Shown here piece after piece: positions 34,782 through 54,387 of a stretch of 64,000 nt of DNA; the stretch's first letter is position 1; each line of letters opens with the position of its first letter. Both the position numbers and the translations under genes were made by a program. The notes under the pieces are model-generated. The model was not told the origin of the DNA and searched no databases. It worked only from the letters and a program-made list of their open reading frames with translations. The stretch comes from Aminobacterium colombiense DSM 12261 (lineage in GTDB: Bacteria > Synergistota > Synergistia > Synergistales > Aminobacteriaceae): assembly GCF_000025885.1 (NCBI RefSeq), contig NC_014011.1:1674001-1738000 (forward strand), read 5' to 3'.

Positions 34782-34813
34782 GAATGAAAAACAAAAGAAA
34801 GAAGAGGATACTT

Positions 34814-35770
34814 ATGAGTACTGTCCTTAACACTATTGGAAGATGCGGTCTCGTACCTGTTATAAAACTCGACAGGTCAGAAGATGCCCTTCCCCTGGGT
34901 GAGGCCCTCATCAAAGGAGGGCTTCCTGTAGCAGAAGTAACCTTCCGCACAGATGCCGCAGAAGAATCTATAGAACAACTTACTTCCCATCTCCCTAACC
35001 TTCTTGTTGGAGCTGGAACCATACTTACAGTTGATCAGGTCAAAAAAGCAGTAGATGCCGGGGCAAAGTTTATTGTCTCTCCTGGTTTTAATCCTACAAT
35101 AGTGGACTACTGCATTGAGCATAAGATACCTATTACGCCAGGCGTCAATTCTCCATCTCAAGTTGAAATGGGGCTTGAACGGGGGCTTTCTGTGCTTAAG
35201 TTCTTTCCGGCAGAAGCATCTGGTGGAGTCTCTATGCTCAAGGCTATGGCTGGGCCATACAAAGACGTTAAATTTATTCCCACAGGAGGCATCAATGCAG
35301 AAAACCTCAACACCTACCTAACATTGCCCATGGTTCACGCCTGTGGCGGCAGCTGGATGGTAAAAAGTGATCTTGTAGCGGCTGGTGCCTTTAACCAGAT
35401 CGTCACACTTGTGCAAGAAGCAGTGTTTACGATGCACAATTTTTCTCTGATACATATAGGCATCAATGAAAACTCTGAGGAAGAAGCTTTACAGTGTGCC
35501 CAGATATTTGAAAAGCTCTTCAATATGCCTGTGAAAAATGGCAACAGCTCTGTTTTCGCTGGGAAATCTTTCGAAATCATGAAGTCTCCCTATCTTGGCA
35601 GCAAGGGACACATTGCCATTAAAACAAACAGTGTGGAAAGAGCGGTAGCCTATCTGAAGACTTTTGGCGTAAAGACCCTTCCTGAAACAGAAAAGAGGAA
35701 AGACGGCAAGCTCAAGGTGGCTTATCTTGACCTTGAAATCTCTGGCTTTGCTATCCATTTGGTAGAGTAA
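34814..35770 (+). CDS. eda: KDPG/KHG aldolase with C-terminal glyoxalase-like domain
   Basis: About 318 residues. Residues 1-205 are a class-I KDPG aldolase: GLVPVIKLDRSEDALPLGEA, GLPVAEVTFRTDAAEE (Glu), LVGAGTILTVDQV, KFIVSPGFNPTIVDYC (Schiff-base Lys region) and KFFPAEASGG (Lys). Residues about 210-318 form a separate alpha/beta domain resembling a glyoxalase/VOC module (FSLIHIGINENSEEEAL ... ISGFAIHLVE). Similar two-domain Eda proteins occur in Clostridia, from memory. ATG 34814 has AGAAGAGG upstream and is preferred to an earlier ATG. It splits 2-keto-3-deoxy-6-phosphogluconate to pyruvate and glyceraldehyde-3-phosphate. Confidence 0.83.
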   Translation: MSTVLNTIGRCGLVPVIKLDRSEDALPLGEALIKGGLPVAEVTFRTDAAEESIEQLTSHLPNLLVGAGTILTVDQVKKAVDAGAKFIVSPGFNPTIVDYCIEHKIPITPGVNSPSQVEMGLERGLSVLKFFPAEASGGVSMLKAMAGPYKDVKFIPTGGINAENLNTYLTLPMVHACGGSWMVKSDLVAAGAFNQIVTLVQEAVFTMHNFSLIHIGINENSEEEALQCAQIFEKLFNMPVKNGNSSVFAGKSFEIMKSPYLGSKGHIAIKTNSVERAVAYLKTFGVKTLPETEKRKDGKLKVAYLDLEISGFAIHLVE

Positions 35771-35829: not shown

Positions 35830-35858
35830 TTGACAGGCGTGTAAATTTCAGATATCAT
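35830..35858 (+). promoter_or_regulatory. promoter of the metNIQ leader
   Basis: TTGACA (35830-35835), 17-base spacer, TATCAT (35853-35858). It gives an expected start near 35865, about 38 bases before the leader-peptide ATG and 190 bases before the attenuator T-run. A perfect -35 and optimal spacing make this the strongest promoter I noticed in the window. Confidence 0.78.
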
Positions 35859-35902
35859 ATGCAACAATTTGCGTACCACAATTAAGGAAGGGAGGAGCCA
35901 CC

Positions 35903-35998
35903 ATGCAAAGCAACAGCAGAACAATCGCAATTATGGTTCAGAACAGCATGATGATGTGCATGTGCGGCGGCCCTCCTGACGTGGTCGACGCAGCTTAG
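35903..35998 (+). CDS. Met/Cys-rich leader peptide of metNIQ
   Basis: 31-residue open frame from ATG 35903 to TAG 35996, preceded by a strong ribosome site (GGAAGGGAGGAG). The centre reads MVQNSMMMCMCGGPP: Met at codons 11, 16, 17, 18 and 20 and Cys at 19 and 21. It lies between a strong promoter and an intrinsic terminator just upstream of the methionine transporter genes. This is the arrangement of a classical ribosome-stalling attenuator sensing charged Met-tRNA (and maybe Cys-tRNA). No homologue is known to me; the call rests on arrangement and codon content. Confidence 0.8.
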   Translation: MQSNSRTIAIMVQNSMMMCMCGGPPDVVDAA

Positions 35999-36030
35999 TG
36001 CTGTCGTCCATTGACTTTCAGGCCGGGGCC
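35969..36030 (+). promoter_or_regulatory. predicted antiterminator of the metNIQ attenuator
   Basis: GGCCC(t)CCTGA at 35969-35979, codons 23-26 of the leader peptide, is complementary to TCAGG(ccg)GGGCC at 36018-36030: five pairs, a bulge, five pairs. The downstream arm includes the whole 5' arm of the terminator, so the two structures exclude each other. A ribosome waiting at the Met codons (35948-35962) leaves 35969-35979 free and favours antitermination. A ribosome that reaches the stop codon covers it. Confidence 0.7.
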
Positions 36031-36056
36031 TTCTTACAGAGGGCCCCGGCTTTTTT
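36022..36056 (+). terminator. attenuator terminator upstream of metN
   Basis: Nine-pair GC stem GCCGGGGCC (36022-36030) with GGCCCCGGC (36042-36050), 11-base loop, then TTTTTT (36051-36056). It ends 42 bases before the metN ATG and is therefore in the leader of metNIQ, not at the end of the preceding operon alone. Confidence 0.9.
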
Positions 36057-36098
36057 GTTGTCATCTTAAGATTAGCTTTATACCAGGAGATGAAATAT

Positions 36099-37112
36099 AT
36101 GATCAGCATCCAGAACCTCTATAAGACCTACCCTTGCGAGGGGGGCGATTTTGAAGCGCTACGAAACGTTAGTATTAACATTCAATCAGGAGAGATATTT
36201 GGAATCATCGGCTTGAGTGGAGCCGGGAAATCCACATTGCTCCGCACTCTTAACCGACTGGAAGAACCCAGTTCTGGCTCCATATGCATTGGGGATACTG
36301 ACATTACGCGGCTTTCTACACCTGAGCTTAGAAAGCTGCGCCGACGCGTAGGCATGATCTTTCAACACTTTAATCTTCTTACATCCCGTACTGTTTTTCA
36401 AAATGTCGCCTTTCCTCTAGAGATAGAAAAATGGGAAACTGACGCCATTTCTAAAAGAGTAACAGAGGTACTCGATCTCGTGGATCTTTCAGACAAGGCT
36501 CAAAGCTACCCTTCCCAGCTAAGTGGAGGGCAAAAACAGAGAGTTGGAATTGCCCGGGCCTTGGCCAACAACCCCAGCCTGCTTCTTTGCGATGAAGCCA
36601 CCAGTGCCCTTGACCCTAAAACGACTCAGTCAATTTTGGCCCTTCTCGATGAAATTAACCGGAAGCTCGGCATTACTATAGTTCTTGTCACCCACGAAAT
36701 GGGAGTCATTCGCCAAATTTGTCATCGGGTCGCCGTCTTAGAACACGGACAGGTTGTAGAACTGGGAGCTGTAAAGGATGTTTTTATGAAACCCCAGTCA
36801 AAAACTGCTCGAGAGTTTTTATGCCATCTCCCAAGGACAACCTATGATTTTGAAAACCTCCCTCAGGAAAAAGGCAAGCCTGTAGCAATCTTTGCCTTCA
36901 ATGGTGAAATGGCAGAACAGCCCGTCATATCCCAGGCCATTAAAAAAAGTGGCGCTGAGATCAATATTCTTTCTGGAGAAATCGACCACCTGCATAGCAG
37001 CCGCATTGGCAATCTCACGGTTCAGCTAAAAGGCAGCCCCGCAGAGATCAGCACGGCCCTTTCCTTTATTAGATCCAAAAACGTAGAAGTGGATGTGGTC
37101 TGGAATGGATAA
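36099..37112 (+). CDS. metN: methionine ABC transporter ATP-binding protein MetN
   Basis: About 337 residues. Walker A GLSGAGKSTLLR, Q-loop MIFQHFNLLTSRTVFQNVAF, signature LSGGQKQRVGIARALANNP, Walker B LLLCDEATSALDP and H-loop VLVTHEMGVI. The C-terminal 75 residues (KPVAIFAFNGEMAEQPVI ... NVEVDVVW) are the NIL domain, which in MetN binds methionine and inhibits transport. ATG 36099 lies 9 bases after AGGAG; an ATG at 36090 would sit on that ribosome site. It energises uptake of methionine through MetI, and its expression is probably set by the leader attenuator. Confidence 0.93.
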   Translation: MISIQNLYKTYPCEGGDFEALRNVSINIQSGEIFGIIGLSGAGKSTLLRTLNRLEEPSSGSICIGDTDITRLSTPELRKLRRRVGMIFQHFNLLTSRTVFQNVAFPLEIEKWETDAISKRVTEVLDLVDLSDKAQSYPSQLSGGQKQRVGIARALANNPSLLLCDEATSALDPKTTQSILALLDEINRKLGITIVLVTHEMGVIRQICHRVAVLEHGQVVELGAVKDVFMKPQSKTAREFLCHLPRTTYDFENLPQEKGKPVAIFAFNGEMAEQPVISQAIKKSGAEINILSGEIDHLHSSRIGNLTVQLKGSPAEISTALSFIRSKNVEVDVVWNG

Positions 37113-37767
37113 GTTGGTTGCACTTATAAATCTTCTGGCAGCTCCAACCCTCGAAACGGTCTATATGGTCATGTTCTCAACCTTTTTTGCAACGCTGCTC
37201 GGATTCCCCATAGGAATTGCCCTTGTTGTAACAGAAAAGGGCGGATTGGTTGAGAATGAAGCGATATACAGAATTCTCGACGGCATTGTAAATGTCTGCC
37301 GCTCTTTCCCCTTTATTATTCTCATGATCGTTCTCTTCCCCTTCTCGCGCCTGATCGTGGGAACTACTATCGGCACCACTGCCTCTATTGTTCCCCTCTC
37401 TATTGGAGCCGCTCCCTTTGTGGGACGAGTTGTAGAAAGCGCCTTAAAGGAAGTGGAAAAAGGGCTTATCGAAGCAGCCGTGTCTATGGGAACCAATCCA
37501 AAGGACATTATTTTAAAAGTTATGGTACCAGAAGCACTCCCTTCTCTTATTCTTGGAGAAACCTTAACCGTTATCAATATCATCGGCTATTCGGCCATGG
37601 CCGGTGCTATTGGAGGCGGCGGACTGGGCGACCTGGCCATTCGCTACGGTTTTCACCGCTTTCAGACAGACGTTCTTATAGCGGCTGTCATCGTTATTAT
37701 CATGCTGGTTCAAGTAATTCAGGTCATCGGGAACAAAACAGCTCTCTATGTCGCCCGTAATCGCTGA
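37105..37767 (+). CDS. metI: methionine ABC transporter permease MetI
   Basis: About 220 residues with five hydrophobic spans. Typical phrases are TLETVYMVMFSTFFATLLGFP, NVCRSFPFIILMIVLFPFSR, GAAPFVGRVVESAL and the EAA loop IEAAVSMGTNPKDIILKVMV. ATG 37105 overlaps the metN stop (ATGGATAA). An in-frame ATG at 37093 is an alternative; neither has a strong ribosome site, consistent with coupling to metN. Confidence 0.93.
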   Translation: MDKLVALINLLAAPTLETVYMVMFSTFFATLLGFPIGIALVVTEKGGLVENEAIYRILDGIVNVCRSFPFIILMIVLFPFSRLIVGTTIGTTASIVPLSIGAAPFVGRVVESALKEVEKGLIEAAVSMGTNPKDIILKVMVPEALPSLILGETLTVINIIGYSAMAGAIGGGGLGDLAIRYGFHRFQTDVLIAAVIVIIMLVQVIQVIGNKTALYVARNR

Positions 37768-37832: not shown

Positions 37833-38633
37833 ATGAAAAGAACTGTAGGTCTTTTACTCTCTCTCACAATACTCGCCATATGGGCAGCTTTTATTCCTAA
37901 TGCGGCAGCGGCAGAAGAAGTGATCAAAATCGGGGCAACCCCTGTCCCTCATGCTGAAATATTAAAGGTCATCAAAGAAGACATTGCCAAAGAAGGGATC
38001 AAACTCGAGATCATAGAGTTTACTGACTATGTAAAGCCCAACCTGGCGCTGAATGATAAGGAAATAGATGCCAACTATTACCAGCACCTTCCCTATCTGG
38101 AAAACTTTAACGCTAATCACCGTACCAAACTTGCGGCTATAGGGACTGTTCATGTAGAAGCCATGGGGTTGTACTCTGAAAAGGTGAAGCATATTGACGA
38201 GCTGAAAGAAAAATCCCTTATCGCTGTCCCCAGTGATAGTGTGAATGGTGGGCGCGCCCTGCTCCTTCTGCAGGCTAACGGTCTTATCACCCTTTCAGAC
38301 AAGGCGGGATTGGAAGCCACAGAGAGAGACATCGTGGAAAATCCCAAAAAGCTCCGCTTCAAATCCATTGAAGCAGCTCAGCTGCCGAGGATACTTCCCG
38401 ACGTGGATGGCGCTGTCATCAATGGAAACTATGCGTTGGAGGCAGGATTTAATCCCACAGAGGATGCTGTGTTGCTGGAAGGCAGCGAATCTCCTTATGC
38501 GAATATAGTTGTAGTTCATGAAGATTCGAAGGATGACGAAAAGTTTGCCATTCTGATGAAACATCTAAATTCTGAGAAAGTGGCCCAATTTATTCTTTCA
38601 ACATATAACGGCGGAGTTACCCCTGCTTTTTAG
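37833..38633 (+). CDS. metQ: methionine-binding protein MetQ (NlpA family)
   Basis: 266 residues. N-terminal Sec signal (KRTVGLLLSLTILAIWAAFIPNAAAAEE) with cleavage likely near AAAA. There is no lipobox cysteine, although most MetQ proteins are lipoproteins, so this one is probably free in the periplasm. The NlpA pattern is clear: IKIGATPVPHAEILKVIK, EIIEFTDYVKPNLALNDKEI, DANYYQHLPYLENF and GAVINGNYALEAGF. It is the last gene of metNIQ and is followed by a hairpin. Ligand is methionine by family and by the Met-coded leader. Confidence 0.93.
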   Translation: MKRTVGLLLSLTILAIWAAFIPNAAAAEEVIKIGATPVPHAEILKVIKEDIAKEGIKLEIIEFTDYVKPNLALNDKEIDANYYQHLPYLENFNANHRTKLAAIGTVHVEAMGLYSEKVKHIDELKEKSLIAVPSDSVNGGRALLLLQANGLITLSDKAGLEATERDIVENPKKLRFKSIEAAQLPRILPDVDGAVINGNYALEAGFNPTEDAVLLEGSESPYANIVVVHEDSKDDEKFAILMKHLNSEKVAQFILSTYNGGVTPAF

Positions 38634-53856: not shown

Positions 53857-54387
53857 CTACCCTGCCATAACCAGAAGCCTTTTAGCTATTCCACGCAGTA
53901 ATATAGCATACAGAGGAACCTGTATGAGTTGTGTCTGCAGTTGGGCTGGAACTGTTGTTACGAGGGGTATTCCAAACAACATCTGCAAAAAATAGGGAAC
54001 GAGAAGCACAGATGTTACCAATTGGCTTATCCCGATAACAACCATAACTTGCCAAAGGGGATGCTGATCTTTTGATTTAAAAACCTTCAGCAGAAGGGCT
54101 GGAAGGATCCCCGTTAAAGCGGCTGTTAGTGTGAAATGGGGCATATACGCTCCCATGGGATTGATCCAGAAACCCACCACATCTCCTAGGGCACCCACTA
54201 CCCCGCCGGCCTTGGCGCCAAAATAGTATCCGGCAAAGATAACCGGCAGCGCTCCAAATCCGATACGAAGAGTTTCGATACCCGCTATTGGAATTCTGAT
54301 GCTGGCCATACGGGTCAAAACAATGTTCAACGCTATGAGAAGAGAAAAATAGACCAGTTCCTGAACTGAAAAGTGATTCCTTTGCAT
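53857..54387 (-). CDS. folT: folate ECF transporter S component (FolT-like)
   Basis: 176 residues, six hydrophobic spans. It has the ECF S-component and FolT pattern: RIGFGALPVIFAGYYFGAKAG, GVVGALGDVVGFWINPMGAY and FTLTAALTGILPALLLK. The substrate-binding subunit would team with shared EcfA/A'/T subunits encoded elsewhere. The call to folate is strengthened by the upstream tetrahydrofolate riboswitch. ATG 54387 has GAGGAGG upstream, which may be sequestered by the leader. Confidence 0.85.
   Translation of the reverse strand: MQRNHFSVQELVYFSLLIALNIVLTRMASIRIPIAGIETLRIGFGALPVIFAGYYFGAKAGGVVGALGDVVGFWINPMGAYMPHFTLTAALTGILPALLLKVFKSKDQHPLWQVMVVIGISQLVTSVLLVPYFLQMLFGIPLVTTVPAQLQTQLIQVPLYAILLRGIAKRLLVMAG

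Follow-up and report, generated by a model that had tools for sequence, protein, structure and literature searches.

The metNIQ operon of Aminobacterium colombiense DSM 12261, which lies in a window of 64,000 nucleotides (the whole stretch of DNA analysed), raises the question of how methionine import is controlled in this bacterium. The known control of met genes relies on SAM riboswitches, T-boxes or repressors. The metNIQ leader, however, shows no match to the covariance models of the SAM riboswitches (RF00162 and the other SAM classes) or of the T-box (RF00230). It holds a small open reading frame (ORF) with a run of Met codons, and it very likely constitutes a ribosome-mediated transcription attenuator that reads these codons, a conclusion based on comparison and not on transcription or codon-replacement data. 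Methionine is the amino acid least expected for attenuation by a leader peptide, because cells short of it also have less of the initiator tRNA with which translation of the leader must begin. This effect could reduce leader translation, and it counts against a Met attenuator.

Table 1. Features of the metNIQ leader and of the genes behind it (positions in the window).
Feature	Position	Strand	Basis or remark
Sigma-70-type promoter TTGACA-17-TATCAT	35830-35858	+	11/12 matches; hexamers and spacing kept in the congeners (L002, L003)
5' UTR segment including the leader Shine-Dalgarno ("segment 1")	35871-35897	+	Pairing to the antiterminator arm without a ribosome is inferred
Leader Shine-Dalgarno, GGGAGGAG	35890-35897	+	Ahead of the leader ORF
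31-codon leader peptide ORF, MQSNSRTIAIMVQNSMMMCMCGGPPDVVDAA and stop	35903-35998	+	Homologous leaders in relatives
Control codons ATG ATG ATG TGC ATG TGC (MMMCMC)	35948-35965	+	Leader comparison, stall geometry
Antiterminator 5' arm (A), GGCCCTCCTGA	35969-35979	+	Truncated folds; covariation in relatives
Hairpin around the leader stop codon, nested within the antiterminator	35985-36015	+	Truncated folds
Antiterminator 3' arm (A'), common to the terminator 5' arm	36018-36030	+	Truncated folds, covariation
Intrinsic terminator: hairpin 36020-36052 with 15-pair stem, T6 at 36051-36056	36020-36056	+	
metN, methionine ABC transporter ATPase with NIL domain	36099-37112	+	TIGR02314, E 3.2e-112; PF00005 and PF09383
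metI, permease	37093-37767	+	NF008049, E 6.7e-65, above cut-off; PF00528
metQ, substrate-binding lipoprotein	37833-38633	+	NF008285 / PF03180

The promoter and the terminator (Table 1) appear once each in the region, while shuffled sequences are expected to hold 1.3 and 0.7, respectively, and the score of either one alone is not above chance. None of 200 shuffles folds as well as the 195-nt leader RNA (z -3.9). Two further species of the genus retain every element (promoter, leader, Met run, antiterminator, terminator) even though their N-terminal leader codons differ, and for this reason the set of elements as a whole goes far beyond chance. The leaders of these congeners have another N-terminus, followed by the same NSMMMCMCGGPP(D/G)VV and the same terminator. 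Sequence and comparison are thus enough to show the parts and their conservation. Regarding metN, ATG 36099 is likely to be a better start than the mechanical ORF start at 36090, an inference made from sequence alone, because an AGGAG ends at 36089, 9 bases ahead, and the TIGR02314 match begins at residue 4.

As for the surroundings of the operon, the gene upstream of the promoter (34784-35770, + strand) encodes a KDPG aldolase extended at its C-terminus by a domain of about 110 residues, which we take to be a glyoxalase/VOC fold, and it belongs to a run with genes for a LarA-like racemase and a malate/sulfolactate-type dehydrogenase. Elsewhere in the window, a THF riboswitch (RF01831; 54467-54564, - strand) is found ahead of the gene for a 176-aa membrane protein (53857-54387, - strand), which by its appearance we take to be an ECF folate transporter.

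The leader is not restricted to the genus. The pattern ATGATGATGTGYATG, searched in 188 Synergistota genomes, gives 40 matches, spread over 38 genomes, whereas the reversed control gives 1. Short leader ORFs with a ribosome site, followed by a terminator and a gene (mostly metN, O-acetylhomoserine sulfhydrylase or metQ), account for 38 of these matches; the two others, L031 and L041, are not leaders. The design of the window, in which GSSPG, GSSPD or GGPPG comes between the Met run and the stop codon, is exhibited by 31 of the 38 leaders, and the remaining seven (L040, L042-L045, L061, L068) hold other C-termini and another terminator. Among relatives, there is wide variation in the N-terminal part and in the residues immediately following MMM.

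Some Met leaders depart from this design. L040 and L061 are near-identical leaders located 13 kb apart in one genome (G007), with the sequence MMMCMGMMMRM(C/Y)TMDAVR and a different terminator, and a MetN gene lies downstream of L040. Single-sequence antiterminator folds are not significant for the L040 and L061 leaders and are modest (z about -2) for L044, L045 and L068. In addition, another type of leader, which contains Met together with Arg and Cys and is exemplified by MRMSMMRFQDACSARCRAPG, is found upstream of metN at L015, L022 and L023, and also at L039 after its Met leader; these leaders resemble Cys/Arg-rich leaders in Actinobacteria.

The antiterminator was studied in 29 distinct leaders of the window's design, selected by their Met run and belonging to related loci. 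RNAalifold on a full MAFFT alignment returned only the terminator, with arm A aligned in two registers; for this reason, truncated sequences and a named structure were used. A first alignment (A1) was discarded because it mixed GGATCC and GGCTC types. Truncation at the terminator loop represents the state in which RNA polymerase has transcribed A' and not yet the last arm. In this state, the A:A' antiterminator forms in all 29 leaders, with arm A just 3' of the Met run and the stop codon inside the nested hairpin, and in A. colombiense position 35969 closes with 36030. The arms pair better with their own partner (mean of -20.7 kcal/mol) than with partners from other leaders (-15.1 kcal/mol), and better than shuffled arms (mean z -3.3). 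Compensatory change is visible in alignment A2, in which the third antiterminator pair is CG in 11 leaders, AU in 8, GC in 2 and GU in 2. The A:A' pairing has a covariation score of 0.328, versus 0.155 in shuffles, none of 500 being as high, and this score falls once the partner is slid; relatedness is not removed by these shuffles. According to these data, an antiterminator that is mutually exclusive with the terminator, and supported by covariation, is shown at the computed and comparative level.

In RNA free of ribosomes, arm A is predicted to pair with the leader's own Shine-Dalgarno in 23 of the 29 leaders. A default-off state in the absence of ribosomes is possible on this basis. The evidence for it is a model prediction and remains weak, because pyrimidine-rich arms often match a Shine-Dalgarno.

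A preliminary description of the locus had proposed the promoter, the 31-codon leader with MMMCMC and the terminator with its T6, which hold base for base, as well as an antiterminator pairing 35969-35979 with 36018-36030 and excluding the terminator, which holds exactly in the truncated folds. Its spacing of 7 bases from the last Met codon of the run to arm A was slightly off, since 6 intervening bases are found. The conservation of Met runs with variable flanks in Synergistota leaders, the covariation of the antiterminator and the presence of related leaders on other met genes were looked for and found.

These results bear on a simpler explanation, namely that the terminator serves only to end the KDPG-aldolase operon upstream, or to insulate metN, the ORF encoding a functional small protein. 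The upstream gene does lie on the same strand and ends at 35770, and leader peptides able to act in trans have been described elsewhere (PMC7298713). However, a conserved promoter separates the KDPG-aldolase gene from the leader, the unit of leader and antiterminator/terminator is found behind many unrelated upstream contexts, and the antiterminator covaries with the terminator. This explanation can be practically ruled out.

Reading of the Met codons by the ribosome is best supported by a natural exchange of codons on a common RNA design, which is comparative evidence, without experiment. A covariance model was built only from arm A to arm A', with no Met codon in it and with the window's genus left out, and it matched 66 of the 188 Synergistota genomes. 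Among the 48 leaders that were new to the Met pattern, 32 are Met-rich, 14 are Val/Leu/Ile-rich and two are of other types (one of them Cys-rich). The new Met-rich leaders mostly keep MMM and vary in the next residues (MMMCL, MMMCA, MMMRM, MMMQM), and the run of the Val/Leu/Ile-rich leaders is devoid of Met, as in MKLMKNLAVQSLVALLIVLIISSGSPPGVIGI from the A. colombiense genome itself (G000:C1:81653).

Downstream genes were named by BLASTP against NCBIfam-named references. Behind the Met leaders are found MetN (31), MetQ (18), O-acetylhomoserine sulfhydrylase (15) and genes of the cystathionine synthase/lyase type (2), together with one CoA ligase and three unknown genes; behind the Val/Leu/Ile leaders, IlvH (5), IlvD (1) and eight unknown genes. 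No crossover is thus observed among identified genes, with 66 met and 0 ilv genes for the Met leaders and 0 met and 6 ilv genes for the Val/Leu/Ile leaders. The association between leader type and gene type (Fisher p = 6e-9) is overstated, as the loci are not independent. Codon-reading attenuation is favoured because the same RNA design, with differing control codons, precedes matching genes, which neither an arrest peptide nor a riboswitch predicts.

Several of these leaders have unexpected neighbours. At L051 (G009:C113), a gene similar to phenylacetate-CoA ligase, a target with no simple fit, lies behind a Met leader of the window's design. The Cys-rich leader L127 (G022:C180:4342-4400), with the sequence FCAMCLCG and the same antiterminator, precedes an ABC permease gene, which by appearance we take to belong to a sulfonate/nitrate-type transporter, and may represent a Cys-codon version of the switch. 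The Val/Leu/Ile leader L131 (G000:C1:81653-81940) precedes no ilv gene and is followed by a small ORF with WRGPFEGYR or AFRGPFEGYR at its C-terminus, an arrangement repeated at L114-L116, L120, L125, L133, L139 and L211-L213; the ORFs at the last three, in other genomes, hold the WRGPFEG motif twice. These small ORFs have no Pfam or NCBIfam family, and their function is unknown.

The same comparison argues against a nascent-chain arrest peptide with Met or SAM as ligand, similar to TnaC or to the MTO1 region of plant CGS1. The conserved C-terminal GSSPG/GGPPG..GA and the rigid Met run of many leaders would support this mechanism. Nevertheless, the leaders compared lack the peptide conservation near the stall site, irrespective of codon identity, that this mechanism requires, given the variable N-terminus and residues after MMM. 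The conserved C-terminus is encoded by the antiterminator arm and appears in identical form with Val/Leu/Ile runs before ilv genes, and leaders from Ruminococcaceae (see below) have no common sequence beyond their Met richness. An arrest peptide is consequently regarded as very unlikely. The leader peptides have no family in Pfam or NCBIfam.

An uncharacterised riboswitch or protein-binding leader, in which the small ORF would be incidental, has in its favour that SAM riboswitches are common in the phylum (113 of 188 genomes) and occupy the place of the leader at the metNIQ homologs of some relatives elsewhere in the family. In A. colombiense, the sole SAM riboswitch (S-box) of the genome lies ahead of a gene which, named from its sequence, we take to be metK, and none of the five T-box matches is at metNIQ. 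Against this possibility, no Rfam family matches the leader at the gathering threshold, and the relaxed threshold only adds sX11 and suhB (E about 0.2), which are terminator-like chance matches. Furthermore, the register in which the antiterminator overlaps the ORF and its stop codon is constant, arm A invariably lying downstream of the Met run, and codon content tracks the downstream gene. This alternative is all but excluded.

Attenuation by translation of the Met codons also agrees with the geometry of the stalled ribosome, computed on the assumption that the ribosome covers 13 bases from the A site (a standard footprint) and without ribosome profiling. When the A site is on the Met codons at 35948, 35951 and 35954, the antiterminator is fully available (-33.9, -33.9 and -33.4 kcal/mol), the third Met still leaving 16 antiterminator pairs. 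It declines to -29.5 kcal/mol on the Cys codon at 35957 and to -20.4 kcal/mol on the Met codon at 35960, and it is absent past the glycines. A ribosome at the leader stop codon covers arm A. This geometry is shown by computation. For the full-length RNA at equilibrium, the terminator is favoured at every ribosome position, from which it is inferred that the decision must fall during transcription.

According to the proposed mechanism, transcription would start near 35865 and a trailing ribosome would translate the 31-codon leader. With ample charged Met-tRNA, this ribosome would reach the stop codon (35996-35998) and cover arm A, so that A' would pair with the downstream arm, the terminator would form, and transcription would end near 36056. 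Under a shortage of charged Met-tRNA, stalling would place the ribosomal A site on the Met codons at 35948-35956, leaving arm A free to pair with A' ahead of the synthesis of the last terminator arm, and transcription would continue into metNIQ to increase methionine import. In the absence of a ribosome, arm A would probably be held by the leader Shine-Dalgarno region and the switch would be off. Stalling, read-through, the ribosome-free off state and the signal itself (Met-tRNA, perhaps also Cys-tRNA) are all inferred.

With respect to the signal, it could be proposed that Cys or the general sulfur status is sensed, by stalling at Cys codons alone or together with Met. Cys follows MMM in nearly all Met leaders, the window holds two Cys codons, and L127 places a Cys-rich run on the same design before an ABC permease gene, whose sulfonate reading rests on appearance. 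However, Met is present in every Met-type leader, whereas Cys is absent from L091, L132 and L140; the geometry favours the Met triplet, with the Cys codons located where arm A starts being covered; and the downstream genes serve Met import and Met synthesis. A Cys signal is considered unlikely. The preliminary description had inferred that stalling for want of charged Met-tRNA, or alternatively Cys-tRNA, turns on metNIQ. The Met part is supported by comparison, including the Met leaders before met genes and Val/Leu/Ile leaders before ilv genes retrieved by a model free of Met codons, although not by experiment, and the Cys-tRNA alternative remains unresolved.

The leader works like the classical attenuators (trp, his, leu, thr, ilv), with which it has in common a short ORF led by a Shine-Dalgarno and holding a run of control codons, an exclusive antiterminator/terminator pair, and genes for the same amino acid. 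Every testable defining feature is met: the ORF lies between promoter and genes, its control codons match these genes, the terminator precedes the first of them, the exclusive antiterminator is backed by covariation, and a stall at Met frees the arm that a ribosome at the stop codon covers. The response to methionine supply is inferred. Contrary to the classical systems, the control codons are those of Met, whose shortage also affects the initiator tRNA, the first arm is inferred to pair with the leader's own Shine-Dalgarno and not to form a separate pause hairpin, and the leaders occur in Synergistota, on transport and sulfhydrylation genes.

The preliminary description knew of no Met leader-peptide attenuator, which holds only in part. 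A small leader named metL, MSTTSDRTPATEATTTPGARCMCRRMCAF, with several Met, has been predicted upstream of metNIQ in Streptomyces lividans (PMC8079986, Table 4). Unlike the leader described here, metL is leaderless and has no clear terminator, no conservation or antiterminator has been shown for it (PMC8079986), and no sequence similarity is apparent between both. This weak prediction is the sole earlier proposal of a Met leader found in the open-access literature searched, which holds no Met attenuator in Synergistota (subscription papers may hold more). A survey from 2005 reported no conserved RNA structures at the methionine operons of Actinobacteria, and polycysteine leaders at their cys operons (PMC1262725). 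The latter likewise have a small leader ORF with codons for a sulfur amino acid, although these are Cys runs without conserved terminators. The SAM riboswitch RF00162 and the Met T-box likewise control the transcription of met genes, and are found at metNIQ in some relatives, but in them the RNA senses SAM or uncharged tRNA directly. A replacement of T-boxes by leader peptides has a precedent in the histidine leaders found at hisS in Firmicutes by a 2010 survey (PMC2965389), which differ in that the amino acid is histidine and not methionine.

Outside Synergistota, a scan of 84,980 named species genomes with ATGATGATGTGYN{3,24}GGNTCCTCNCCNG gave 29 matches, of which 27 are from Synergistota, one from Chloroflexi and one from Ruminococcaceae. 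The Chloroflexi match (L148) is not a leader. The match in Ruminococcaceae bacterium RUG13855 is a real leader, MRITSVNSMMMEMYMCGMCMMMCALKS and stop, with promoter and terminator, ahead of metN. Met-rich leaders of unrelated sequence, each with a terminator, are found at 13 among the closest MetN homologs from this family, and three more distant Ruminococcaceae MetN genes have T-boxes. Only leader, terminator and gene are shown for this set, as its antiterminators are not significant by single-sequence folding.

A bolder reading is that Synergistota inherited one design, consisting of an arm A that encodes GSSPG/GSPPG at the leader end, a first arm pairing with the Shine-Dalgarno, and a shared terminator arm, in which Met and Val/Leu/Ile have replaced one another as control codons while the unit came to stand ahead of different genes, and that the Ruminococcaceae leaders arose separately in replacement of a T-box. 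The balance tilts only slightly in favour of this reading. The phylum-wide Met leaders, together with a sister set differing only in the control codons, represent a natural codon-swap experiment. The Met leader set explains how met genes are controlled in genomes without an S-box at metNIQ, provides annotators with a searchable model, and makes the question of initiation versus elongation testable. If the bolder reading is true, the sensing of Met-tRNA by a leader peptide would be a widespread and overlooked control of methionine supply.
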